50,573 bases of DNA, taken from positions 1 to 50,573 of IMG/VR virus record IMGVR_UViG_3300015194_000002, one strand, 5' to 3'. Shown here piece after piece: positions 3,776 to 30,726 of the stretch. This DNA is from a virus. Each line of letters starts with the position of its first letter. Positions within the stretch are counted from its first letter, which is position 1. The notes under the pieces were generated by a model that saw only the letters and a program-made list of their open reading frames with translations, made no database searches and was not told where the DNA came from. The translations under genes and the position numbers were made by a program.

Positions 3776-4043
3776 AATTTGGTAGTTCTATTGTTTGACC
3801 TACTAATTCATGTTTACAGTCTGATAAAAATTGTATTTTTCCTTCTGTTACATAGGAATGACAAACAGGTTCTATTACTCCTTTTATAGTTTTATCCCAA
3901 GAAACTAATAAAGAAGGAGAAAATGTTGGGGAATCTAAAGAACCATTCCAGGTCCATCTATTTAAGTCAAATGAGTGTAAATGTCCACAACCTGGACAAT
4001 GAATAAGTATAGTATTATTTTCTGTCTTATATGCTTTAGACAT
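3765..4043 (-). CDS. DUF6527-like protein
   Basis: 92 residues with the features I associate with DUF6527: CPGCGHLHSF near residue 16, WTWNGSLDSPTFSPSLL in the middle, then CHSYVTEGKIQFLSDCKHEL and a closing LP. The CxxC and later CH/CxH pairs suggest a small zinc-binding fold. These proteins are common in phages near tail and lysis genes; their role is unknown. It overlaps both neighbours slightly, so it is likely co-translated. Confidence 0.75.
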   Translation of the reverse strand: MSKAYKTENNTILIHCPGCGHLHSFDLNRWTWNGSLDSPTFSPSLLVSWDKTIKGVIEPVCHSYVTEGKIQFLSDCKHELVGQTIELPNYDD

Positions 4044-4221
4044 TTATAGGTGCTCCATATGTTAAGAACTTTATTGCAAAGATTATTACTATTGCAACTA
4101 TTATAACCCAAAATACTTGTACTACCCAAGGAGGAATAGTTAAATTGAATTGTCTTAGAGCAATAAATACTAATGCTATTACTGCTGCTACAATTATTAC
4201 ATTAATTGCTAAAGATACCAT
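4036..4221 (-). CDS. Two-helix membrane protein, holin candidate
   Basis: 61 residues, almost all hydrophobic, with two transmembrane helices (about 3-24 and 32-53) separated by a short NLTIPPWVVQ turn. Size, topology and position after the tail genes fit a small class II-type holin. It overlaps the downstream DUF6527 gene and the upstream HNH gene. No classical endolysin lies next to it, so the lysis role is inferred. Confidence 0.6.
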   Translation of the reverse strand: MVSLAINVIIVAAVIALVFIALRQFNLTIPPWVVQVFWVIIVAIVIIFAIKFLTYGAPINV

Positions 4222-16441: not shown

Positions 16442-18502
16442 TTATGCTTTGGCTCGAAGAATTAGTTCACGTTCACGTTCGTTGACTGCTACATCCCAAA
16501 CGCCTCTCCAACCAAAACCAAGTAGTTCTGCTGGTAGATCAACTGTCTGAATATCTGGTGTTTTCATACCTTGTAGATAACAGATAGAGTAAGGAGCAAA
16601 TCGAGATTCTAGTGGCCATAGAACCCAAGAACTTGTTGTTGCAAATGTACTTGCACCAAAAGCTCCCGTATTTGCCATATTTCCAAATGGTACAATCTTG
16701 AACATATTGTACCAGAAGTTTTCTTGACCTGTAACTGTGTTAGCAGTTGTGTCATTAACTAGAGTGCTTTGACGCATTAGTTCAAAAGCAGTTTTTTCTA
16801 GTTCAGGAGCTACGATCAATTGCCACTTGGAACTTGCCATAGTGTTCCAACTGATATTACCTTTAGCAATACTATACTGTCGAACAGCATTCCATGCCGT
16901 TTCTAGATTTCCTCGATTAAGAGCAAAAGAAGTTCGAGAGTTATCAGCATTTACCCAAAATGAAGCTGCTGCTGATGCTTGCTTAAGCATCAAACGACCC
17001 AATTGAAGATCAGGAATCATCCTGGCACCTTCTGCCATACCTTCAAGTAGTCCTTGAATTACGTCAGAATCACCATTGATGATTTCTTGTCGAGTCAAAG
17101 TCATGATTTGAGCAGAAGTCTTTAGTTGTGTACGATAGAATACTTCCGTACCTGCCGTAGTTAGGTCAACTTTAGAATCTGCTTTAACTTCACTCCAAGA
17201 TTCTCCACTATTTGGACGTACTTTATCTGTTGGTCGGAAGTCTTCATTAGAAACTTCTTTACAGATTTTAGTTGCTAAAGGAGGATCAATTGCCCATCGT
17301 TCTTCAAGCATAATCTTTCCTGCTTTGAGGAATAGATTAGGCATATCGAAAGTACCAAAACCAGTGTTATTAATACGTGTTCGGGAATTTACGACATTAC
17401 GACGAATGAAATCGACCATATCCATCTTGTCAGAGTGACCACTATAGTTACCACCGTAAGCACGGGAGCAAAGATACATGGTTTCATGTAAAGACATACG
17501 AGCACGTTTATATTGGTTATCGATAAGTTTCTTATCGTAACCTTGTTTTTCTAGGCTTTCTGGGCTAATTCCATTACCTAGCATGAAACGTACTTCAATG
17601 GTTTGATCTTCACCTTTTTGACTAGGAGAAGGAATACCATTATTAAACTTATTTTCCAAAGCCTTATATTTAACTGTATTTTCAATAACAGAAATATCAA
17701 GACCCTCGGAAAGAGACTTTTCAACGTACTCTGCTTGATCAGGATATTGTCTTGAAAGACGCATACCATCAACCATAAGTTGACGAGCCATCTTAAAAGT
17801 ATCAGAAGCAGGAGTAGGGGTTGGAATTGGAGTAGGTTCTGGTTCTGGTAGCTTGTTTTCTACCTTAATAGGTGGTAGCTTATCTTCTACTTTAACAGGT
17901 GGTGTTTCTGAGGGAGTTGAGTTCTTGATAGTCATCCTTTGTTCCTTGTTTAAGAATTCATAACTGGTGTTACCGTCACGGCCGTTTTCCGTTACCGTCA
18001 TTTCGTCTAATTCTGACTGTTCAATAAAATAGTGTGGAGCAGTAAATGTTCTTCCGTTCATTACTCTGATTCCTTTCTCAATATAAGTTATATTACCTGG
18101 AGTATTAGGTACATAAACTCCCATTGAGCCTTGGTATGGAAAACCGTTTTCTATGCCGGAACTTATTTCTTCGGCTCTGTCATTCTTTAAACTAAGAACT
18201 CCTTCACCTTTTAGTTGTCCGCCATCGATGGATAAACTTGTTGTATGTCCCACTGATTTATAGTGTTCATACTTTATAGGTTTTTTATCATTGTTCCATG
18301 TAATGCCGTCAACATTATATGCAACAGGAGCATCAAACCCATAGTCACTTAAATCTACTGCAACTCCTGTATAACCAATAAAACTAAGTTTTACTGGTCC
18401 TATAGAGTCTTTAGATAATTTAATTGATTCTGCTTTTGAATGAAGTATCTTCCTTGAATTTTCTGGGGGAGATAGTGTATGTTTTCTTGGTTTAAGTCCC
18501 AT
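16442..18502 (-). CDS. Prohead protease - major capsid protein fusion (GpT-like)
   Basis: 686 residues. Residues 36-190 resemble a phage prohead protease: FIGYTGVAVDL, a likely catalytic His at 80 (IKYEHYKSVGH) and a likely catalytic Ser at 126 (FPYQGSMGVY). A Pro/Glu/Lys-rich linker follows (about 195-235; EPEPTPIPTPTP), then a scaffold-like helical region. From about 300 comes a major capsid domain resembling Mu gpT (NRGNLETAWNAVRQ, ILRAKA end). One polypeptide can thus provide protease, scaffold and shell; the protease would cut itself away during maturation. It sits after the portal gene, six bases away. G-rich motif copy at 18463. Confidence 0.75.
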   Translation of the reverse strand: MGLKPRKHTLSPPENSRKILHSKAESIKLSKDSIGPVKLSFIGYTGVAVDLSDYGFDAPVAYNVDGITWNNDKKPIKYEHYKSVGHTTSLSIDGGQLKGEGVLSLKNDRAEEISSGIENGFPYQGSMGVYVPNTPGNITYIEKGIRVMNGRTFTAPHYFIEQSELDEMTVTENGRDGNTSYEFLNKEQRMTIKNSTPSETPPVKVEDKLPPIKVENKLPEPEPTPIPTPTPASDTFKMARQLMVDGMRLSRQYPDQAEYVEKSLSEGLDISVIENTVKYKALENKFNNGIPSPSQKGEDQTIEVRFMLGNGISPESLEKQGYDKKLIDNQYKRARMSLHETMYLCSRAYGGNYSGHSDKMDMVDFIRRNVVNSRTRINNTGFGTFDMPNLFLKAGKIMLEERWAIDPPLATKICKEVSNEDFRPTDKVRPNSGESWSEVKADSKVDLTTAGTEVFYRTQLKTSAQIMTLTRQEIINGDSDVIQGLLEGMAEGARMIPDLQLGRLMLKQASAAASFWVNADNSRTSFALNRGNLETAWNAVRQYSIAKGNISWNTMASSKWQLIVAPELEKTAFELMRQSTLVNDTTANTVTGQENFWYNMFKIVPFGNMANTGAFGASTFATTSSWVLWPLESRFAPYSICYLQGMKTPDIQTVDLPAELLGFGWRGVWDVAVNERERELILRAKA

Positions 18503-18507
18503 TGGTT

Positions 18508-19878
18508 TTAATCCTTATTATTATCATTACCTGGAACATCCTTTATAAGAGTAAGTGCGGCAGGTGATCTACCTACTATAAAACTATCTATTAGATCTTG
18601 TGGATCTATACGAAGTAAAGTTGCTTCTCGTTCTATTTCTCTTCGAGCATTTTTGCCTCGTTCTGAATAAATATTGTATAGTGTTGTAGATCCTGTAATA
18701 AGATCAGTCATTCTAGCAGCAGCATTCTTATTTGGATCTGGATGTTCAAACACATAATCATAATTAAACTTAAAAGTTAATTTATTTAATTGTGATCTTA
18801 CTCCGGTTGGAAGATAATCTTCTTTCAATTCTGCTAATGAAGACCATAGACTGAATATCTTTCTTGGAATAGGTTCGTAATCAATACGATCTATTTTAAC
18901 CCTATTTTTCCAAGGTTGAACGTCATAAGATGCTACTGACATATTAGATCCAGAAGAATCACCTAAGGCTAATGTCTTAGGCATATTAATACATCTTGCA
19001 GCAGCACCTATAACTAACTCAATATATTGTACTCTTTCAGAAGATCTAGGTCCAGCATTATGAGCAACTAATTTAGCTCCTGGGGGGAGGGTTGGTATCA
19101 TACCTGGTTCATATTCGAATTTACCTGTAGGTATAGTAGATGCATCTTCTACTTTATACACTAAAGGATCTAATTCTAACATCATTGCTATAGATTGATT
19201 TAGTTCTTCTGAACGAACGATAGCATCCATAAATCTACGAACAGAAGGGAATAAACAAAAAGCTGGTCCACATTCTGGCATACCAATGTATTGGTCTTCT
19301 CTGGTTTTCTTGTACCAAATTAGTATGTCTTTTGCTTCATATGTTTTAGTTTGGAATATACCACTTTTGACGTGGATAGCTTCTACATCCCAATTTTTAT
19401 CATAAGTTATACCATCAATGGTATGAGGATCATTCATTAAATCAACAGGATTTGTAAGATCCATTACAGATAAAGGTTTAATACCAAGGGGTATTTTATC
19501 TATAGGATTGTTGATTATATATGGTATACCTATACCTACTCCGGTTCTTGCTGCTGCTCGTCTTATTTGTCGTAGAGCAGTACCAATACCATTATTTACA
19601 CACCAATTATACCATGCATCTTCTACTGCATTATTTACAAGTGGATTAGGGTGATCTCCTAATAGCATTGGTACAGAGCCACAACCATGTTCTGCTATAC
19701 AGTTAAGCATACCAGTATAATAACTATTTTGTTCATCTTCTTCAATAGATATTTTTCTTAGATGTTGTCTAAAGATTGGATATTTTATTAAAGAATTATA
19801 TCTAGTTCTATCAGGTAAAGTTACAGTTACTTTATTTGATAAGCCAAAGAATTGTTTTGTCTTTTCTAGTATACTCAT
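18508..19878 (-). CDS. Portal protein, lambda B-type
   Basis: 456 residues. Landmarks fit the lambda-type portal family: NSYYTGMLNCIAEH near residue 50, ALRQIRRAAARTG, a DPHTIDGI segment, then LIWYKKTREDQYIGMPECGP and the late NMSVASYDVQPWKNRV. The portal forms the dodecameric ring at the packaging vertex and seeds prohead assembly. It is encoded between a tiny membrane peptide and the protease-capsid fusion, the normal order. G-rich motif copy at 19080. Confidence 0.85.
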   Translation of the reverse strand: MSILEKTKQFFGLSNKVTVTLPDRTRYNSLIKYPIFRQHLRKISIEEDEQNSYYTGMLNCIAEHGCGSVPMLLGDHPNPLVNNAVEDAWYNWCVNNGIGTALRQIRRAAARTGVGIGIPYIINNPIDKIPLGIKPLSVMDLTNPVDLMNDPHTIDGITYDKNWDVEAIHVKSGIFQTKTYEAKDILIWYKKTREDQYIGMPECGPAFCLFPSVRRFMDAIVRSEELNQSIAMMLELDPLVYKVEDASTIPTGKFEYEPGMIPTLPPGAKLVAHNAGPRSSERVQYIELVIGAAARCINMPKTLALGDSSGSNMSVASYDVQPWKNRVKIDRIDYEPIPRKIFSLWSSLAELKEDYLPTGVRSQLNKLTFKFNYDYVFEHPDPNKNAAARMTDLITGSTTLYNIYSERGKNARREIEREATLLRIDPQDLIDSFIVGRSPAALTLIKDVPGNDNNKD

Positions 19879-20195: not shown

Positions 20196-20746
20196 TATGT
20201 TGCTCCGTATTTAAAGATTGCTACACCTTCAACTAATATTGTATCTGTTGAATCTCTTATAGACCAAAAACCACATTCTGTCTGGGTGGTGTAAGGTGCT
20301 ACAGGTACTGAGAATCCGGTTGTTGTTCCTGTTGCTGTTAAGGATAACAGATCTACTTTTAGGTTTGATTCTAACTTAAAGGTTCCTGTAGTACCCAAGT
20401 AAGATACTGTGATTCCTGCATCGTCTAATGTTACTATATTTTTAGTATAAGTTCCACCATTATAGAATGTAAGGCTATTTCCTTGTTGAATCTTTTCACC
20501 TTTAACAACACTTGTATTTATTGTTACTAAATTACTATCAGTAACAGAACTAGCTCCTCGATGATCTGTATATGTTGTAGGTGTTGGTGTTCTTAAAAAT
20601 ACATACCAAATATCATAAGTAGTTACAGTAGCTAAATAACGTCCACTACTTGCTGGTGTTTCTGTCATAGCTATAGCAGTAACTAGGTCTGATCCTGATC
20701 TAACATCTAATAATAGTCCTATAGCATCTATATGTTCGACTATCAT
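20195..20746 (-). CDS. Probable virion protein, unknown
   Basis: 183 residues, Thr/Ser-rich and beta-rich with no signal peptide (starts MIVEHIDAIG). Short repeated beta strands such as TATGTTTGFSV fit a fibre-like or decoration protein. It overlaps the upstream gene by four bases. G-rich motif copy at 20282. Confidence 0.5.
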   Translation of the reverse strand: MIVEHIDAIGLLLDVRSGSDLVTAIAMTETPASSGRYLATVTTYDIWYVFLRTPTPTTYTDHRGASSVTDSNLVTINTSVVKGEKIQQGNSLTFYNGGTYTKNIVTLDDAGITVSYLGTTGTFKLESNLKVDLLSLTATGTTTGFSVPVAPYTTQTECGFWSIRDSTDTILVEGVAIFKYGAT

Positions 20747-21213
20747 TGTGCTATCTTAATTTCTGAATCAGAAGTAATTTTAACTTCCTGGGGGAGTAGT
20801 TGGGGTTGTGTTGATTGCTTTGATAATTCAACAGCTTTGACTAAAGCATCAGTGCTTGTTTGTAGGATGTTGGTTAGATTACCATTAACAAGAGTTTTAA
20901 CTGCATTAGTGGTTTCAACTAGCCTATCAAGCTTCTGTGTATTCTCTTGAGACTTGAGTTCTCTTTGATGATTTATATCTATGAGAGTTGCTTTAACTTC
21001 TTGTGCTACAGAAGCTGTTTTATTAGCTTCTGTCTTAACTATTTCTTTAACATCAGTAGCACATTTAGCATTTTCAACAACAACTGCTTGTTGTAAGCTT
21101 CTATTTCCTCTAAGAGTCACTAATAAGGTTGCTAAAGCTGCAAGCATAGCAGGTATGCCAGCAATAAGAGCTAAGATAATTTGAGTGTAGTCAATTTCCA
21201 TAAGCATAATCAA
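20743..21213 (-). CDS. Membrane-anchored coiled-coil protein, holin/spanin-like candidate
   Basis: 156 residues. One N-terminal transmembrane helix (about 11-34, IILALIAGIPAMLAALATLL) is followed by a long coiled coil (about 40-135). The ATG overlaps the TGA of the upstream membrane protein. The pair sits directly after the exported metalloprotease, which suggests a lysis or envelope-disruption cassette, by context only. G-rich motif copy at 20788. Confidence 0.5.
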   Translation of the reverse strand: MIMLMEIDYTQIILALIAGIPAMLAALATLLVTLRGNRSLQQAVVVENAKCATDVKEIVKTEANKTASVAQEVKATLIDINHQRELKSQENTQKLDRLVETTNAVKTLVNGNLTNILQTSTDALVKAVELSKQSTQPQLLPQEVKITSDSEIKIAQ

Positions 21214-21422
21214 TCTCCTTGTTTTTCAGTGATTAAAGCATCAAGTCTAGTTTCGATACTTTTTATCCAAATTCTTCTCTCGTTGTACATTGCCATATGA
21301 CTTTGTAGCTCAGCTTCGATAGCTTGTGATCGTCGAGTGAATACCAATATCGTAATGAATAAAGATAATACCCACGACATTAAACAGAAAAGCAGTACGT
21401 AATTTATGCTTGTTTTTTTCAT
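21210..21422 (-). CDS. Small membrane protein with coiled coil
   Basis: 70 residues: a short basic N-terminus, one transmembrane helix (about 7-29, VLLFCLMSWVLSLFITILVF) and then a coiled coil. This is the size and topology of an inner-membrane spanin (Rz-like) or a small holin. It lies between the metalloprotease and another membrane/coiled-coil gene. Confidence 0.5.
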   Translation of the reverse strand: MKKTSINYVLLFCLMSWVLSLFITILVFTRRSQAIEAELQSHMAMYNERRIWIKSIETRLDALITEKQGD

Positions 21423-21427
21423 TATTT

Positions 21428-22081
21428 TTAGTGTTTATATATTAGTGGAAAAATATTATCATCTACAGTTCCTGAAACAGTTTGACGAGAGAAATATGAT
21501 TTCAACCAATCTGGTTCTTGTGAGGGACGAAGATTACTTTTCCAAACCATTCTATCAAAATAACCAAGATCACTATTTAATATAAGATAACCTCCATTAG
21601 GTCCCATTAAGCCACCATCCTGGGAGTGGTGCGCTTGAGATCGTGTATGTCGGTTTTCATGACATATTACCATCATACTTTGTACTGGATTATAAAATCT
21701 AAATGTTGGACTAACTAATGTTGTTGTATTTCCCGTTCTAGCAGCAACATTAGTACCTAAATTATAGTTAGCTTGGATAACATGATATTGTCCTCCTCGT
21801 GTTACTCTTTGATATTGTATGTTCCAATAGTGTCCAAATGAGTTTAGTGCATAATCGATATCACTAAATGCAAATGTGCCATTGTATTGACCACCTTGGT
21901 ACATGGTTGCTAAATCCCATGTAACTATAACTACCCCTTGAGGAGCAGCTTCTACTCCCATTAGTGGTGTATGTACTATACGTATTGGTTCTAGGCAAGG
22001 TACTTCTTCATATGTGAGATTTTGACTCATCCCATTTGATGAAGAAATAATTAAGAACAGGATTGTAAAGATAGATTTCAT
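21428..22081 (-). CDS. Exported matrixin-like metalloprotease
   Basis: 217 residues with an N-terminal signal peptide (MKSIFTILFLIISSSNG). Residues 141-151 read HENRHTRSQAH, the HExxHxxxxxH zinc signature of metzincins. Exactly eight residues after the third His comes a Met-turn, GGLMGP (Met159). That spacing and the LMxP form are those of matrixins (HExxHxxGxxH...LMYP); the usual Gly in the zinc helix is Ser here. An upstream segment IDYALNSFGHYWNI also fits the N-terminal subdomain ("AL..W"). It probably cuts host surface or envelope proteins during entry or lysis. G-rich motif copy at 21620. Confidence 0.75.
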   Translation of the reverse strand: MKSIFTILFLIISSSNGMSQNLTYEEVPCLEPIRIVHTPLMGVEAAPQGVVIVTWDLATMYQGGQYNGTFAFSDIDYALNSFGHYWNIQYQRVTRGGQYHVIQANYNLGTNVAARTGNTTTLVSPTFRFYNPVQSMMVICHENRHTRSQAHHSQDGGLMGPNGGYLILNSDLGYFDRMVWKSNLRPSQEPDWLKSYFSRQTVSGTVDDNIFPLIYKH

Positions 22082-22083
22082 GT

Positions 22084-23004
22084 TTAGCTGATATCCGGTA
22101 TTGCGAATTCACTCATGATCTTAGCAACGTCGACATTTTTGTAATCAGGGTGAACAGTCTTGAGCGTTACCAAGATCGCGGTACACAAGGCACCAACCGA
22201 ATTCATAACTGATAGATGTAATGCCGTAGTCGATCCAAGCAAAGTACCCAGGTCACCTGTCAGCACTTTGGTAATCTCAGCAATTTGCTTTTGACGCATA
22301 ACAAGTTCCGCTTCAAATCCTTTTAGCGAAGTTGTTAGTTCAGCAACGGTTTGCTTGAGAGCAACTTCGTTGTATTGGAAGCCTTCAATAACTGGTACGG
22401 CTGTACCGTTAGTACGAGCTACCAAGAGTTGACCAGTAACATCTACCTGCAATTCGATTTGCTTGATTGCCGATTGCAGTTCAGCTTTGTTCTTGTCACG
22501 CTCTCGTCGAGTGTCACCGTCAACGAAAAGTAATTCAAGGTAAGTCTGTACCTTGTCGTAGTCTTCATTTGCATAGACACCCACTTTGATCTTGATCGAC
22601 TTCTTCTGGGTGGGGTGTAGGTTTGCTTCGAAGGCATCGGCACGAAGGAATACGGCTGGTCCGTTTACTTGGCTTCCAGCAGGTTGATCGGCTGTTTGGG
22701 GGAAGAGTTCGGCTACTTGGTCGAATGCTCCGTTCCAAGCTGCAACAACATCAGCCCCTAATGTTTTGGCTTGTTCAAGAATTTCGTCCTTTGTTGGTGT
22801 GGATTCATCGTCGTATATGAAGTAGTCACTACGAACAATTTGGTTATTGATCCAGCCAGTAATTGAAGTAGATATTTGAGGCTTGTCAGCAACCTTTTGT
22901 TGCCCTTGCCGTCCTTGATCGTCTTGTACTGCAACTTGCGAAAAGCCGGGGAACAAGACAAGCTTGAGTGAGCTAAAGAACGGTTTGGTGTATCTAATTT
23001 CCAT
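22084..23004 (-). CDS. Unknown coiled-coil protein in GC-richer segment
   Basis: 306 residues. The first 150 residues are mixed alpha/beta. Residues 155-265 form charged helices with heptads (RERDKNKAELQSAIKQIELQ; LKGFEAELVMRQKQIAEITK). No family is recognised. Its codons are clearly more GC-rich than those of the flanking phage genes and resemble the fibre gene's, suggesting joint acquisition. G-rich motif copy at 22606 in CTGGGTGGGG form. Confidence 0.55.
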   Translation of the reverse strand: MEIRYTKPFFSSLKLVLFPGFSQVAVQDDQGRQGQQKVADKPQISTSITGWINNQIVRSDYFIYDDESTPTKDEILEQAKTLGADVVAAWNGAFDQVAELFPQTADQPAGSQVNGPAVFLRADAFEANLHPTQKKSIKIKVGVYANEDYDKVQTYLELLFVDGDTRRERDKNKAELQSAIKQIELQVDVTGQLLVARTNGTAVPVIEGFQYNEVALKQTVAELTTSLKGFEAELVMRQKQIAEITKVLTGDLGTLLGSTTALHLSVMNSVGALCTAILVTLKTVHPDYKNVDVAKIMSEFAIPDIS

Positions 23005-23023
23005 TTATAAATCCTTCGAGTAA

Positions 23024-23245
23024 TTAACGTAATTCTTCGTATAGTTTTCCAGAGCCTTGACATATTGGACAGGTATAGGTTCCTGCTTCTTCAAATCCAT
23101 TAACGACAAACCAATGGTCTTTATCGTAAGTAACTTTTCCTACTCCATTACATTCAGAACAATCGACTTCTTTCCAATTTGGATGTGGAGTAGGCTTCGA
23201 GCACGACGCAAGGCATAGGATGCAAAGTAGCACTAGGTATCTCAT
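23024..23245 (-). CDS. Lipoprotein with DnaJ-type zinc-finger repeats
   Basis: 73 residues from MRYLVLLCIL; the ATG overlaps the TGA of the fibre gene, which fixes the start. A lipobox (LASC, Cys around 15) ends the signal. The mature part carries two CxxCxGxG motifs (CSECNGVGKV and CPICQGSGKL), the zinc knuckle of DnaJ-like proteins. A lipid-anchored zinc finger encoded by a phage suggests a moron-like surface protein, but no function is known. Confidence 0.7.
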   Translation of the reverse strand: MRYLVLLCILCLASCSKPTPHPNWKEVDCSECNGVGKVTYDKDHWFVVNGFEEAGTYTCPICQGSGKLYEELR

Positions 23246-24420
23246 ACGAATGTCACACTCCTCATAGTACCTGCATCGTTCAACCAAATCTTAGAAGTTC
23301 CGGTTGTTGTGTTCTTACTGATTCGTGTTTGACCGGATGCTATATCAGCCACGGATAGGTCTGTTGATTGAGAATGGATTACGGAAGTGATGTTGCCACT
23401 TGCGGTGATGTTGCCTGTGCTAATATTACCGTTAGAAATCGTTAGCCCGAGAACAGATGCCGCTAAGGTGTCTGTAGTCCCGTTATGTGTTAAAAACTCC
23501 ATAGCGTTTCCGATTGGACTGCCTTCGTTATGGATTGTTCGCACCCAATGCGAAAATCCTCCAGCCGTAAACTGCATCCGCAATTGATGGAGGCCAAGCG
23601 TGGCTGGGAAAGTGTCTCCACTTCTGGTTGAAATTGCTCCCGCAGCCATCGTCACCGTATTCGTTGTACCGAACGTATGCGTGCCAGTAGATTGGAACGT
23701 CCCAGTGCCACTTGCGGTGATGTTGCCTTTGCTAAATATCCCGTTCGTCGGTGCTGTATCCAAGTACGAATCCGACACGACCAACCCACCTACTTTGATC
23801 GGTTGAGCACTGCCTACCGAAGTTATGAAAATTGATGAACCACCTGCAGTGGTTATGTACGAGTTGTCCAAGGCAAACTCTAAAATCGTCCCTGTTTTAA
23901 TTTTCCCAATAGTCTCTAGGTAGCCTAATGCTACTATATTTACGTTTGCAACGATTGAGCCTGATGCGGTGATGTTGCCTGTTACTGCTAAAGGACAATT
24001 GATAACAAAATTGCCTCCAACATTATTAGTTAATGTTATATCATTGCCTGCATCATAACCAACGAAACCTTGTCGAGTTCCGTTAGGTTTGTACCACTCA
24101 AAATAGCCTGTTACACCTGTAGTACCGGGACTCATTCTGGCGACTCCAAGCGTGTTTATCTGAGTCCCTATGTTGCCGGTTGCGGTGATGTTGCCTGTGA
24201 CTGCTTGGTCAGTCAAAAAGAAGTTGTTTTGGCTCTTCCGTGCCACATCTAAAGGCAGTTGCCCTACTGCTACAGTTCCGAACAGGTCCAGGAAGTTCGT
24301 AGCATGGGGATTGCCGGATAGTTGGGAGTGATCGTAGGCTGTCTTGCCACGGTCACCACGGTATGCTGTGGTGGAGGTTTCGCCTAAAGCAACACCTGGC
24401 TTAATTGTTGAGAAATTCAT
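23242..24420 (-). CDS. Tail fibre-like repeat protein
   Basis: 392 residues. The start has TTAYRGDRGKTAYDHSQLSG, a motif common at the shaft of phage tail fibres and collar proteins. The rest is beta-rich with at least four GNITA(S/T) repeats encoded by an exact 18-base DNA repeat. It ends with an IWLNDAGTMRSVTF strand. It probably forms a trimeric fibre that touches the host. No C-terminal chaperone or lectin domain is visible, so it may end in an adaptor. Base composition is more GC-rich than the genome average. Confidence 0.7.
   Translation of the reverse strand: MNFSTIKPGVALGETSTTAYRGDRGKTAYDHSQLSGNPHATNFLDLFGTVAVGQLPLDVARKSQNNFFLTDQAVTGNITATGNIGTQINTLGVARMSPGTTGVTGYFEWYKPNGTRQGFVGYDAGNDITLTNNVGGNFVINCPLAVTGNITASGSIVANVNIVALGYLETIGKIKTGTILEFALDNSYITTAGGSSIFITSVGSAQPIKVGGLVVSDSYLDTAPTNGIFSKGNITASGTGTFQSTGTHTFGTTNTVTMAAGAISTRSGDTFPATLGLHQLRMQFTAGGFSHWVRTIHNEGSPIGNAMEFLTHNGTTDTLAASVLGLTISNGNISTGNITASGNITSVIHSQSTDLSVADIASGQTRISKNTTTGTSKIWLNDAGTMRSVTFV
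23401..24198. repeat. 18-base repeat inside fibre gene
   Basis: TGCGGTGATGTTGCCTGT or a near copy occurs at 23401-23418, 23713-23730, 23965-23982 and 24181-24198, with a partial copy near 23385. It encodes TGNITA on the minus strand. It is a coding repeat, and could let fibre length change by recombination. Spacing of about 220-310 bases is irregular. Confidence 0.75.
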
Positions 24421-24734
24421 TGTATTAATGCCACTAAAGTACGAGCAGAAGATTGTGCTGTTGCGACTCTAATTCTATACTGCAATAAACTTGATACAAC
24501 TTCCTGGGGGAGGTTTATTATTTTACTTTGTGTGTATCCTGGATTGTATAATGCGTTTGCATTTGTATACACTTCTATCCAAGATGTTCCTCCATCTGTT
24601 GTAGATTCTATAATAAATGTTGCTGTTCCATTCATTACAGGAAAGGATATTCCTCTCAAGGTTCTTTTATCAGGTATTGTATCTGATCCTGATATTGTAT
24701 CGCCTGATGCTATAGCTAGGTTTTGTTTTATCAT
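24417..24734 (-). CDS. Small beta-rich virion-associated protein
   Basis: 105 residues from MIKQNLAIASG; the ATG overlaps the upstream TGA (ATGA). Text such as LRGISFPVMNGTATFIIESTTDGGTSW fits a small beta-sandwich, as seen in phage accessory structural proteins. It precedes the fibre gene with a four-base overlap and may be a fibre attachment or decoration protein. G-rich motif copy at 24504. Confidence 0.55.
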   Translation of the reverse strand: MIKQNLAIASGDTISGSDTIPDKRTLRGISFPVMNGTATFIIESTTDGGTSWIEVYTNANALYNPGYTQSKIINLPQEVVSSLLQYRIRVATAQSSARTLVALIQ

Positions 24735-25234
24735 CGACAAAATATCCTTTTGAAGAATGATCTAATTGGTTTGTTTCCTCGAAAGGAATAAGAAGAAGAA
24801 GAATAAGAAGATGAATAGGAAGATCTAGAAGAAGTATGAATTGAATCATGTAATCTTAGTTGATCTTCTGTAGACATTCCAGATATTGTTTGTCCATGAT
24901 CAGTTTGTAGATGATTGGTTATGTTTCCTGGAAAACTCCAATGAGTTTGTCTAGTTTGTGTTCGTTGTACAGAGGAACTTATTGGGCAAGTACCTGTAGG
25001 ACAACTTTGTTGGGTTTGCACAGAAGAAGATTGTGTTCTTACGACAGGGCATTTACCGTCAGGACAATTTTGGAATGTGTTTTGTACGATTGTCTTTGGC
25101 AATCTTACAATTGCTTTAATGGTATCACAACGACCATTTTCGCATAGAGGAGTTTGTGTATTACGTACAGGTACATCAACATAAGCTGCTGATGTAAAGG
25201 ATGTAAGTAGTAGTAGAATTAGAATTGTTTTCAT
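24731..25234 (-). CDS. Exported protein with CPxGxCP motifs
   Basis: 167 residues with a signal peptide (MKTILILLLLTSFTSA). The mature part has three C-x4-C units: CENGRCDT, CPDGKCPVV and CPTGTCPIS. It ends in a Ser/Tyr/Arg-rich tail with FKRIFCR. I associate CPxGxCP motifs with exported proteins of Planctomycetota, which hints at the host. Role unknown; possibly a surface or virion protein. Confidence 0.65.
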   Translation of the reverse strand: MKTILILLLLTSFTSAAYVDVPVRNTQTPLCENGRCDTIKAIVRLPKTIVQNTFQNCPDGKCPVVRTQSSSVQTQQSCPTGTCPISSSVQRTQTRQTHWSFPGNITNHLQTDHGQTISGMSTEDQLRLHDSIHTSSRSSYSSSYSSSSYSFRGNKPIRSFFKRIFCR

Positions 25235-25235
25235 A

Positions 25236-26102
25236 TTATGCTGCCTTTGATGTTCTTGAAGCTACTGCTCCATTAGGTACTGCCTTGTTACCTCGAAGTA
25301 AACCCATACCTCGATCTGACCAACTATTTCCCCACGAATTCCAAATTCGTACTCCCCAACGATTTATATCTGAGAGTTTAAGTGAAGTGTCATACTCTAT
25401 TGCATCTAGACCAAGTATACTATGACCCCACCAATTGAGATCCATTACTACAGGAATATCTTGTAGTAAACAAGATATAAGTTGATCAAAACTAAAATTA
25501 CGATCGTATGGTCTAATAGATAAATCACACCAAGCACCAGTAATCTTATATTTTTCAGCTTCTTTCCATGTTGCTGGATTGTTATACGAACGAGAAAAAG
25601 ATCCTTGAGGCCACATTGACTGGGGTGGTATACCATGTTTAATGATATATTCCATTGATAGCCCTCCCCAACCTCCTTCATTTCTAAAGTCTTTTATCAA
25701 ACAAGCTACTGCGTATGCTGATAAAGCAATATAAGGTTCATTAGCTATTGCTCTATTAATTGTTTCTCCATGAGTCGTGCTGTGTACCCAACAGAAGTTT
25801 GATTGTCCTTGATCTAAGGATGGTATTGATGCACCTGCATCACCTGATAATCGTATATCAGATAGTTGTGATTGTGCTTGTTGTTTATCCTTTATACGAG
25901 AAGACCATTCTTCTCTTGTATAAAGGGTAATTAGTCTTGGATCCCAAGCTGGTACTGATTCGATACTACCTGCTGGATATATACCATAGTTTCTAGGAGT
26001 TAATCCAAAACCTTTTTGTTCACCATCTACAATTATATCAGAACAATGTTCTAAGTAATTGTTATCATCTATAATTAATTCATTGTTTCTTGCAAAGTCC
26101 AT
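25236..26102 (-). CDS. Papain-like cysteine peptidase (C1 family)
   Basis: 288 residues. The active-site set is visible: Gln98 and Cys104 in LDQGQSNFCWVH (the QxxxxxCW spacing of papain), His227 in LNWWGHSILGLDA and Asn255 in RIWNSWGNSW. The oxyanion Gln, Cys, His and Asn are all present. There is no signal peptide, so it may be a virion enzyme or released at lysis. It is encoded beside an exported thioredoxin-like protein and other exported proteins. Papain-like peptidases are rare in phages. G-rich motif copy at 25620. Confidence 0.85.
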   Translation of the reverse strand: MDFARNNELIIDDNNYLEHCSDIIVDGEQKGFGLTPRNYGIYPAGSIESVPAWDPRLITLYTREEWSSRIKDKQQAQSQLSDIRLSGDAGASIPSLDQGQSNFCWVHSTTHGETINRAIANEPYIALSAYAVACLIKDFRNEGGWGGLSMEYIIKHGIPPQSMWPQGSFSRSYNNPATWKEAEKYKITGAWCDLSIRPYDRNFSFDQLISCLLQDIPVVMDLNWWGHSILGLDAIEYDTSLKLSDINRWGVRIWNSWGNSWSDRGMGLLRGNKAVPNGAVASRTSKAA

Positions 26103-26776
26103 TATGCACCACCGTATTTCTTTAGTAGAGAAAGCATTTCTGTAGTAGTTTTGGGTGCTGGTCCCTCATAACCTGTTTTACCATCGGATATAATAATCCA
26201 AGGTTGAGTAGGTTTAGGTCTGTTCATTGCATCTTGCCACATAGGTATTGTTTCTGTAGTATCTACATTAACATCCCAAACTCTATATTCCATTGTCTTA
26301 TTGTTTGGACCTTTGACACAATGGGTATTTAAGTAGTCTCTAACTACCTTTGCAGTCATAGATTCAGGTACTCCAAGAGCTGAATCATATGTCATTAGAA
26401 CCCTAAATCCTGGATAAGGAATAGGAGCAGGATTAAGGGGAGTGGGGGTGGGAGTGGGGTTTGGAAGAGGATTAAAACCTGAATCAACAACATCTATTAT
26501 CCAAGAACCTATAGCTATACCATCTGTAGAAGAAGATACTAAATGTATTTCCTTTTTTCCTGGGAGGGTGAATGATATAGCTAATCCATTTGTTCCTGCT
26601 AATGTCATACATCCATCAGGAGTTATCCATTTTTGGTGTGTACCTACAGAAGAAGAACTATCAAGAATAATTACTTCTTGTGATTTACAGGTTGTCAGAC
26701 CTTTTATTGTTACTGATTGGGCTTGTAGGGTTGTACAGCCCAAGAGTAGTAGAAGTTTTATAAAATGCTGGATCAT
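26102..26776 (-). CDS. Exported protein with beta domain, PT linker and thioredoxin-like end
   Basis: About 224 residues from MIQHFIKLLL; an earlier ATG at 26857 would put 27 polar residues before the signal, so I reject it. A signal peptide ending LLGCTTLQA, possibly a lipobox, leads into a beta-sandwich domain. A PNPTPTPTPLNPAP linker (about residues 105-120) follows. The last domain (FRVLMTYDSALG, VWDVNVDTTETIP, WIIISDGKTGYEGP) looks like a thioredoxin-type fold without a CxxC. Function unknown. G-rich motif copy at 26560. Confidence 0.55.
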   Translation of the reverse strand: MIQHFIKLLLLLGCTTLQAQSVTIKGLTTCKSQEVIILDSSSSVGTHQKWITPDGCMTLAGTNGLAISFTLPGKKEIHLVSSSTDGIAIGSWIIDVVDSGFNPLPNPTPTPTPLNPAPIPYPGFRVLMTYDSALGVPESMTAKVVRDYLNTHCVKGPNNKTMEYRVWDVNVDTTETIPMWQDAMNRPKPTQPWIIISDGKTGYEGPAPKTTTEMLSLLKKYGGA

Positions 26777-26816
26777 TTTGTTTCTTTCATGTGGGGGGAA
26801 ATTAAAATCGGTATGC

Positions 26817-27143
26817 TTACACAACCTTTTTATGGTTGTCATAAAATTTAGTTGCAAGAGTCATAACTAATGCTTTTACAATAGGTACTATGAGAATTCC
26901 CATAGGATTACTAGCAAGCATAGGAGCAATGAAAGTATCGAATGATCTCGATACTACAGCTAGGAATTCTTCTTTAGTAAGAGAAGATACATCGATTGAT
27001 ACAAACACTTTCTTAATAATGTCCATGAATCTTTGGCCTAGACCAAAGGTTCCTAGCTTAGCTGTGTTTGTACCAATACCTGATACACTTGGTACTAAAG
27101 CTAAATTTAGAGCTTCTTGGAAATTTTGTTCTGCTGGAGACAT
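26817..27143 (-). CDS. Small helical protein, unknown
   Basis: 108 residues with amphipathic helices and a hydrophobic C-terminal stretch (GILIVPIVKALVMTLATKF). It may associate with membranes. It opens the exported-protein cassette with the 27160 gene. No family recognised. Confidence 0.5.
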   Translation of the reverse strand: MSPAEQNFQEALNLALVPSVSGIGTNTAKLGTFGLGQRFMDIIKKVFVSIDVSSLTKEEFLAVVSRSFDTFIAPMLASNPMGILIVPIVKALVMTLATKFYDNHKKVV

Positions 27144-27159: not shown

Positions 27160-27447
27160 CTAAAGTTTGGTGTAAGTGACTAGAGTAGTTGCAGGGGTTG
27201 ACGTGGTATATAAAGCTACAAGTTCCCAACCGTTTGGAACTATAGTTTCTGTTATTGATGTCGTTGTAACATCTGCTACTGATTTACAATTAGCAAGTGT
27301 TAATTGTCCAGGAGGAATTAAAACTAATTTAATACTATTTACAGTTCCTACTGCTTGAATTGCTATAGCATATCTACCACCATCTAACGGTCCTGTAGAT
27401 AAAGTAAATGTAGTTCCTGTTACTTCTAATGGTATTGATCCATTCAT
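27160..27447 (-). CDS. Small beta-rich protein, first gene left of regulatory region 2
   Basis: 95 residues, Thr/Val-rich beta protein (starts MNGSIPLEVTG). It resembles small virion accessory proteins. It is the first gene after regulatory region 2, so late transcription may begin just to its right, though a hairpin with T tract (27455-27512) lies between. Confidence 0.55.
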   Translation of the reverse strand: MNGSIPLEVTGTTFTLSTGPLDGGRYAIAIQAVGTVNSIKLVLIPPGQLTLANCKSVADVTTTSITETIVPNGWELVALYTTSTPATTLVTYTKL

Positions 27448-28333: not shown

Positions 28334-28564
28334 TTACTTTATTATTATTGTTGTTTTTACTACATCTATATCTGCTATTCTTTTTATTTCTTTTAATGTT
28401 TTTGTATTTTGAATTACATATATTTGTTGTTGTAATCTTCTTTTTTCTATTTCAAGAGTTATTATCTTATTCATTTGGTTGTCAAATTTATTATTTATAT
28501 CTTCTATTAGTGTTATGGTTAATTCTTGCAATCTTATTATTTTAAGTAATAATTCATTTTTCAT
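28334..28564 (-). CDS. Small coiled-coil protein after terminase
   Basis: 76 residues, nearly all one coiled coil (starts MKNELLLKII). Its ATG overlaps the terminase stop (ATGA-type overlap at 28561-28564). A plus-strand open frame in the same place is an antisense shadow. Its role could be packaging-linked, but that rests on position only. Confidence 0.5.
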   Translation of the reverse strand: MKNELLLKIIRLQELTITLIEDINNKFDNQMNKIITLEIEKRRLQQQIYVIQNTKTLKEIKRIADIDVVKTTIIIK

Positions 28565-30726
28565 AATTTTGCTACTTTCAAAGACGACATATAAGAAGCC
28601 ATGTCCATACTAGTGTTTGCTACTTTTACTCTTAGAGAAGAACCTAGCATAAATAGATTGGCGGCACAACCTACAATATTATCGAAGTATTCGTTTTCTC
28701 CGTTCCCTCCCCATATAATTACTGATCGATCTTCTTTTTCAAAGTAATCTATTTTAGGGGTTTCTCCATGACAATGTTCTGCTACTAAAGCATGTTGTCC
28801 AAAGAATTCTGGGGGGAAGAGACTGACTGATCCTGCCATACCATAACGGGTTCTGAATCCTTTATGGATAAGTGTCTTCATAAAATTAATATCCATGTAC
28901 AACATCATTTGATGTTCTTCTGTTGGTGATTGCCAACAGTGATATGATTTTATTGTTGTTGCTGCATAGTTTTTATCCATCATAGGTTTTTCTTTAGCCG
29001 TAAAACCTATACCACGGGCAGGTCGTACTATATTTTTACATTTACAATCTCTACAAGCTTTTAATACTTCATGCCACATCATACCCCAACCTACGTCTAC
29101 GGTTATAAGGTTGTTTACTAATTCGACTCCATCAGATCGTAGGTATGTCTTTTCAGAAATCTTTTCAAGCATATCCTTTACAGCAGTATAAATTAGGAAA
29201 GTTGGTTCATCTTCTGGTATGTCTGGATATGCTCTAGCTAATGTATTGTATACATTATCTTTTACCCATCTTTGGCCTGATTGTTCTGGAAAAGTACCAT
29301 AGTCAATTATGTGTGGTGTGAATAGATCTCCAGTAGAACAAGTTACATAAGTTAGTAGAGGTTTGTTTACGTCAATATGGGTTGTAATATATCTTGTTTC
29401 TACAGGACAAGTATTTCTGGGGGTGTTGTGTATCTTATCCATGATTGTCTTTTGACTTGCCATTAAATCTTCCGTATCTTTACGGGATATGATGACGTTG
29501 CATTGACATTCTGATTCAAATGATTCTGCTCCTTCGTATATTAAAAAATTCATTGCATGTTGTAAAGCAGATATTTCTACTTGAGGATCTTCATTCCAAC
29601 CAAATGCCCATTCCCAAGACATTACAGAACCTTCGTCCATAGCTGTTTGGTTAGAACGATAGAATTCTAAAGCACGCATGGCAGCTTTATTACGTGAACC
29701 TAATTCTTCTTTCTTAAAGTCTAAAAGAACTTTAGCATAGTCTTCAATCCAAAGGTTATAATTCTTTGGAGGCACTTTCATCATTTTATAAAGAACAACT
29801 TCCCAACCTACTTCATTTAATATGAAGTGACTGGTTACATCATTTTCACATATTGGGGTACAACACATGAGTGCCGAAACTCGTTTAGAGTGTGATCCTC
29901 CAAATAGAACGGAGCGTTTAAGTCTTCTAACAATTTTCTTGACTGTGTTTGGATTCTCTGCATCCTCGTCTGTCTGAATGTCATCGAGAAACACAAAATC
30001 GGGTCGTAGAATCTTACCCTTTTCAGGTCCAGACCTGATTCGAGTAAAAAGCCCACGTGCTTTATCTTTGGATCTAACTTGTAGAATACTACCAGAACAA
30101 GGTTCTCCCGGTATAATAGGAAATCGTACTCTGTCTTTACCAATGCGTATATTTGTGTACTCCCCCATATAAGTTTGTCTTGGAGCTTTGTGGGGACTGT
30201 TATTGATATGTTCAAAGCAGGCACAGACGGCTGGATAGAGATTAGCCAAAGCCTCATTTTCCGTAAGTTCCGCTTGAATCGCTTCAAGAATTTCTTGTCC
30301 TTTCTCAATACTTTCGGCGAGGATAACGACATATCTTCTTGCTCCTTGTAAAGTTGCTAATAGTGCATGATTACATGTACGACCTGTTTTAACAAAACCA
30401 CGAGGTTCTGCTAATACTAATCTACCACCTTCCCAAATTAGATTACGAGACATGTTGATAGAGTTGATTTGATCAGCACCAAAATCTCTAAGACCAGTAG
30501 AATTAGTAAAAAGATCTTTATGAGCTAGTACATAATCTTTTTCATATAGTTTTCTTAATTCTATTATTTCCTGGGAGATGGGTGGTTGTTCTCCTACTTC
30601 GTTGAGTGCGTCTTTCTTTCTCTTAGAATTTTTAGTTGCTCTTAGGTTTTCTTTGGCTCTATAGATTTCTTCTTTCGTATGTTGTGCCGAAGGATCTATA
30701 TATTCGTCGTAGTCGAAATTAGACAT
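28561..30726 (-). CDS. Terminase large subunit
   Basis: 721 residues. The ATPase half has a deviant Walker A (AEPRGFVKTGRT, about 107-117) and a clear Walker B (DFVFLDDI, about 243-250), followed by a coupling-type segment VSALMCCTPI. The C-terminal half should be the RNase H-like nuclease, with acidic residues in TTHIDVNKPLL and LITVDVGWGM. The enzyme cuts concatemers and pumps DNA into the prohead. No small terminase was recognised nearby. It overlaps the primase-helicase by eight bases. Three G-rich motif copies lie within it (28809, 29417, 30571). Confidence 0.8.
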   Translation of the reverse strand: MSNFDYDEYIDPSAQHTKEEIYRAKENLRATKNSKRKKDALNEVGEQPPISQEIIELRKLYEKDYVLAHKDLFTNSTGLRDFGADQINSINMSRNLIWEGGRLVLAEPRGFVKTGRTCNHALLATLQGARRYVVILAESIEKGQEILEAIQAELTENEALANLYPAVCACFEHINNSPHKAPRQTYMGEYTNIRIGKDRVRFPIIPGEPCSGSILQVRSKDKARGLFTRIRSGPEKGKILRPDFVFLDDIQTDEDAENPNTVKKIVRRLKRSVLFGGSHSKRVSALMCCTPICENDVTSHFILNEVGWEVVLYKMMKVPPKNYNLWIEDYAKVLLDFKKEELGSRNKAAMRALEFYRSNQTAMDEGSVMSWEWAFGWNEDPQVEISALQHAMNFLIYEGAESFESECQCNVIISRKDTEDLMASQKTIMDKIHNTPRNTCPVETRYITTHIDVNKPLLTYVTCSTGDLFTPHIIDYGTFPEQSGQRWVKDNVYNTLARAYPDIPEDEPTFLIYTAVKDMLEKISEKTYLRSDGVELVNNLITVDVGWGMMWHEVLKACRDCKCKNIVRPARGIGFTAKEKPMMDKNYAATTIKSYHCWQSPTEEHQMMLYMDINFMKTLIHKGFRTRYGMAGSVSLFPPEFFGQHALVAEHCHGETPKIDYFEKEDRSVIIWGGNGENEYFDNIVGCAANLFMLGSSLRVKVANTSMDMASYMSSLKVAKL

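Follow-up and report, generated by a model that had tools for sequence, protein, structure and literature searches.

The window analysed here, the 50,573-base virus record IMGVR_UViG_3300015194_000002 (positions 1 to 50,573), encodes an orphan, exported-looking protein of 217 amino acids with a spaced zinc-site-like motif that is real and statistically notable. Judged from its sequence, a canonical matrixin identity of this protein is not supported, and by our own judgement it is slightly likelier to be an active zinc peptidase than to be none. More secure, and of greater interest, is what its surroundings show, namely that phages of this uncultured lineage exchange peptidases between terminase and portal. 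The features of this region are summarized in Table 1.

Table 1. Features of the terminase-portal region and candidate lysis genes. Positions refer to the window unless a related contig (L number) is named.
Feature	Position	Strand	Evidence
Terminase large subunit, upstream border of the variable region	28561..30726	-	
Homologue of the gene directly downstream of the relatives' subtilase; slot marker	27160..27447	-	29-32% identity, E 2e-8 to 5e-8
Exported PKD-like/proline-rich protein, partial homologue of the relatives' cassette proteins	26102..26857	-	28-32% identity, E 1e-3 to 1.6e-7
Papain-like (C1) cysteine peptidase, 288 aa, without prodomain or signal	25236..26102	-	phmmer E 2.5e-7 to ficin
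Small secreted protein with repeated CxxGxC motifs	24731..25234	-	sequence
Lipoprotein-like protein (LASC lipobox) with DnaJ-type CxxCxGxG pair	23024..23287	-	PF00684 E 2e-5, below its cut-off
HExxH protein, exported-looking; H141-E142-x-x-H145-x5-H151, Met159, LMGP	21428..22081	-	sequence
Putative zinc site and Met-turn, residues 141-160, HENRHTRSQAHHSQDGGLMG; Ser148 replaces the metzincin Gly	21602..21661	-	
Single-TM protein, 70 aa, charged, probably coiled tail; candidate holin or inner-membrane-spanin-like	21210..21422	-	hydropathy 2.5; function inferred
Single-TM protein, 156 aa, long polar, probably coiled tail	20743..21213	-	weak PHROG match 6e-5
Portal protein, downstream border of the variable region	18508..19878	-	PF05136 E 7e-17
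Holin candidate, 61 aa, two TM segments, far end of the late genes/end of the tail genes	4036-4221		PHROG-negative
Subtilisin-like peptidase of the relatives	L003:3288-4220, L005:3055-3987, L006:3227-4159, L007:3042-3971, L008:93-608		

The ORF of the HExxH protein runs on the minus strand from an ATG at 22081 to a stop at 21428. It is tightly packed, starting 2 nt past the stop of the ORF at 22084-23004 and ending 5 nt before the next gene. By eye, the N-terminus, MKSIFTILFLIISSSNGMSQ, has a signal-peptide-like layout, and from this sequence the protein is probably secreted. Within HENRHTRSQAHHSQDGGLMGP, HExxH occupies residues 141-145, the third His is residue 151 and the Met is residue 159. 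The string HENRHTRSQAH (residues 141-151) holds H141, E142, H145 and H151 and is directly followed by H152, while Met159 lies within LMGP at exactly +8 from H151. Every element named in the initial annotation, that is, signal peptide (by eye), HExxHxxxxxH and LMGP Met-turn, is thus present. When the six-frame translation of the window is considered, HExxHx5H is expected 0.05 times by chance and was seen once; the expectation falls to about 0.0009 with Met at +8, and to about 3e-6 when LMxP is also required. The hydrophobic residues before the motif (MMVICHE) agree with the matrixin positions. Further upstream, A78-x3-F82-x5-I88-x-Y90-xx-V93 fits by eye the spacing of helix A and strand II in MMPs, with Phe replacing Trp.

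For comparison, IMG/VR was scanned with the DNA pattern HExxHx5Hx6(L/F)MxP, in which motif position 7 was left free. At least 119 contigs carry the full pattern, and the translated matches listed are mostly plain matrixins; therefore, such genes are no rarity in viral contigs. The initial annotation had regarded such enzymes as hardly known in phages, which is wrong for viral contigs in view of these matches, of the tailed-phage protein A0A6J5P205, already labelled 'Peptidase M10' in BFVD/UniProt, and of the Listeria protein Mtz (PMC8235301). On the other hand, three viral matrixins used as tblastn queries gave no match in 50,697 sequenced phages, and therefore the IMG/VR matrixins derive mostly from uncultured viruses or, as some of the matrixin-bearing contigs exceed 120 kb, perhaps partly from giant eukaryotic viruses. 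Matrixins may be scarce in tailed phages specifically. An adjacent co-directional gene for a short TM protein accompanies 25 of 72 viral matrixin genes, compared with 15% of background genes, a figure that is indicative only since the sequences are related. One matrixin ORF on the minus strand of contig L106 has a TM/coiled segment and a lipobox-like stretch followed by the matrixin domain, possibly a fusion or an overlap.

The claim that the protein matches the matrixin layout holds for the seven spaced residues and fails elsewhere. HExxH with its Glu, the third His at HExxH+6 and the Met of the Met-turn are features of metzincins and M10 that are present; the Gly of HExxHxxGxxH and similarity to an M10 profile are not. 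At motif position 7, all 96 distinct viral motif strings among the matches listed have Gly, after which the metzincin chain makes a sharp turn (PMC9848320), while the 217-aa protein has Ser148. This substitution had been overlooked, as had the non-matrixin residues at the neighbouring variable positions. Among the same 96 strings, position 3 is Gly in 87 (Arg here), position 6 is Leu in 76 (Arg here) and position 8 is Leu in 75 (Gln here); position 2, hydrophobic in matrixins, is Asn here. The layout with WSN codons (Ser, Thr, Cys, Arg, Trp) at position 7 was found in 0 contigs of IMG/VR. When scored with a profile built from viral matrixins, the protein reaches 7.0 bits (E 2.6), which is background level among 8,411 ORFs, compared with a median of 116 bits for the viral matrixins. 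An hhalign comparison with the viral matrixins aligned only 33 columns around the motif. In the profile test, shuffling the sequence with the motif kept intact left the score as high as that of the native protein, and the motif-masked protein gave no signal against the viral matrixins. Since the Gly position, a defining feature, is occupied by Ser, we do not assign the protein to the matrixins, although it may function as they do.

No homologue of the protein was found: Pfam gave no match at E<=1, PHROGs, PDB sequences, sequenced phages, IMG/VR and GTDB genomes contained no relative, and the records of the related phages held no homologue. A search for the host with the portal profile in bacterial and archaeal genomes also gave no match. 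When AF2 was run on the single sequence, the model had a pLDDT of 31, and a fold search with it returned unrelated proteins, nothing metzincin-like. A second model was built from an alignment with 32 distant viral matrixins, and the result is biased by this alignment. Its mean pLDDT is 56, with much of the sheet region below 50; the best modelled parts of this matrixin-biased model are helix A, strands 1 and 2, the HExxH helix and the Met-turn, in blocks of about 80 pLDDT, and the order is beta1-helixA-beta2. The best 50 PDB matches of the model are all MMPs, and these are weak (E >= 0.06, TM about 0.35) and subject to the same alignment bias.

With the portal and capsid profiles, six related contigs were found, which share 40-45% identity in these proteins and a colinear gene order. 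A subtilisin-like peptidase lies between terminase and portal in all five relatives that cover the region (Pfam S8 E 1e-40; PDB phmmer E 4e-51). The window has no subtilase, but retains the gene next to it (27160-27447) and the gene for the exported PKD-like protein (26102-26857); in place of the subtilase, the papain-like peptidase is found, and the HExxH protein further on. The papain-like protein has the Gln/Cys motif QGQSNFCW and the Asn motif NSWGNSW, both covered by the phmmer match to ficin; its catalytic His was assigned by eye, its Pfam C1 match is sub-threshold, and it has no match in sequenced phages. The stretch 22084-24420 has about 45% G+C compared with 34% for the window, which suggests a recent acquisition near the HExxH gene. 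This island also contains a fibre-like, repeat-rich ORF (23242-24420) in which a 31-40 nt repeat recurs several times, and the DnaJ-type zinc-finger pair of the lipoprotein-like gene in Table 1 is unusual in an exported phage protein. Beyond the portal gene, 16442-18502 encodes a protein of 686 aa in which the head maturation protease and the major capsid protein are apparently fused, an arrangement that is conserved in the relatives.

The two genes that follow the HExxH gene encode membrane proteins, as the initial annotation had noted, each with one strong N-terminal TM segment; their coiled parts were judged from sequence. The 156-aa protein resembles in architecture the TM-plus-coil proteins of 80-94 aa in the relatives (L005:6077-6361, L008:2809-3051). 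Pfam and PHROG scans of the phage, the latter covering only some of the small ORFs, yielded no confirmed endolysin, and none of the cassette genes was confirmed as a holin; an endolysin may exist despite the missing profile matches. In the genome of the relative L005 (G004, L134-L136), one protein matches PHROG 2252 'endolysin; inhibits RNA polymerase' (E 5e-8), a name without Pfam backing, as Pfam finds no amidase or lysozyme there. For the proposed lysis or surface-digestion cassette in place of an endolysin, the membrane neighbours, the late-gene position and the lack of a Pfam- or PHROG-confirmed endolysin therefore stand, and a lysis or surface role of the 217-aa protein is plausible.

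Our best explanation is an accessory protein that would be expressed late and exported by the Sec pathway, and that is most probably a zinc-dependent peptidase which has diverged strongly. Zinc would be held by His141, His145 and His151, the water would be activated by Glu142, and Met159 would lie beneath the metal as in metzincins. After export, the enzyme would cleave host envelope or surface proteins, making lysis or virion release easier or removing receptors, and the adjacent TM proteins may act together with it. Its gene lies in the variable stretch between terminase and portal, where peptidases are exchanged among related phages. The likely export, the place among the late genes, the TM proteins next to it and this exchange lead us to prefer an accessory enzyme whose substrates would be proteins of the host envelope, and we hold this reading, of a divergent exported zinc peptidase with the host envelope as its target, tentatively and at somewhat less than an even chance.

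There is also a substantial chance, though short of even, that the protein is an exported orphan without peptidase activity, whose motif is coincidental or a decayed remnant and whose role is binding or structural, for example as a surface or superinfection-exclusion factor. The background profile score with no support beyond the motif, the five non-matrixin core positions (including the Gly invariant in the viral matrixins listed) and the lack of relatives in the databases searched all point in this direction, and the protein was chosen for its motif, so that selection favours coincidence. However, a full spaced motif so rarely expected in the window argues against this reading, not even a chance copy with a Ser-like residue at position 7 occurs in the viral contigs of IMG/VR, and the export signal and the hydrophobic residues before the motif suit a zincin. 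A special case of the explanation that we prefer is a true but degenerate M10-like matrixin, obtained from a host or another phage and retaining the normal metzincin fold. The correct spacing of all seven key residues together with the helix-A pattern, the weak likeness of the aligned AF2 model to MMP catalytic domains and the abundance of matrixins in viral contigs are consistent with it; we nevertheless consider it rather unlikely, since the turn after the HExxH helix carries Gly-to-Ser, Leu-to-Arg and Leu-to-Gln changes, Ser has a precedent in 0 of the 96 viral motifs listed, and the profile score is far below the viral matrixin median.

Lysis could also be carried out by the papain-like peptidase or by an unrecognised endolysin, with the HExxH protein acting elsewhere, for instance by releasing nutrients, removing receptors or processing the virion surface. 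The family relationship of the papain-like protein is confirmed, its gene lies nearer to the slot of the relatives' subtilase, and a holin-like gene with two TM segments is present at the far end of the late genes. Neither this protein nor the subtilases have a signal peptide, however, so a holin would be needed, and we regard this division of labour as unlikely. Least probable, with a very small chance of being right, is a phage lineage without a conventional peptidoglycan endolysin, in which exchangeable peptidases (the subtilase in the relatives, the papain-like and the exported HExxH enzyme here) would dismantle a protein-rich host envelope to release the virions.

If the 217-aa protein is an active zinc peptidase, a metzincin-like zinc site would tolerate the loss of its hallmark glycine, and the lineage would swap unrelated peptidases in one region, hinting at protein instead of peptidoglycan as the target. 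Even a negative outcome would leave two points, that viral contigs commonly carry matrixin-type genes and that spaced His and Met residues alone are insufficient for family membership.

When compared with matrixins (MEROPS M10A, the MMP catalytic domain, including those of IMG/VR), the protein shares HExxHx5H, Met at +8, Pro two residues after the Met, the putative export signal and a helix-A-like segment upstream. It differs from them in the Ser for Gly, the non-hydrophobic surrounding core positions and the missing profile-level similarity, and no propeptide or cysteine switch was recognised. The nearest precedent for the proposed role is the link to lysis in the Mtz-Tim system of Listeria, in which a secreted metzincin of phage origin is paired with a TIMP-like lipoprotein; Mtz cleaves a lipoprotein and renders the cell more sensitive to lysis by phage, and genes related to this system often lie downstream of holin-lysin genes (PMC8235301). 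By its described features, Mtz is likewise phage-associated and secreted, with an extended HExxH and a Met-turn and with membrane or lipoprotein genes beside it. Unlike the present protein, Mtz has the canonical Gly, a TIMP-like partner and prophage versions next to a holin-lysin pair; no such partner or pair was found here. The subtilase of the relatives (S8), whose matches include PHROG 3677 'protease' and which has further relatives in Bacillus and Moorella phages, is a serine peptidase of a strongly conserved family, without a signal peptide and without sequence relation to the HExxH protein. Both lie between terminase and portal in this lineage, the subtilase as a phage-encoded peptidase and the HExxH protein as a putative one.
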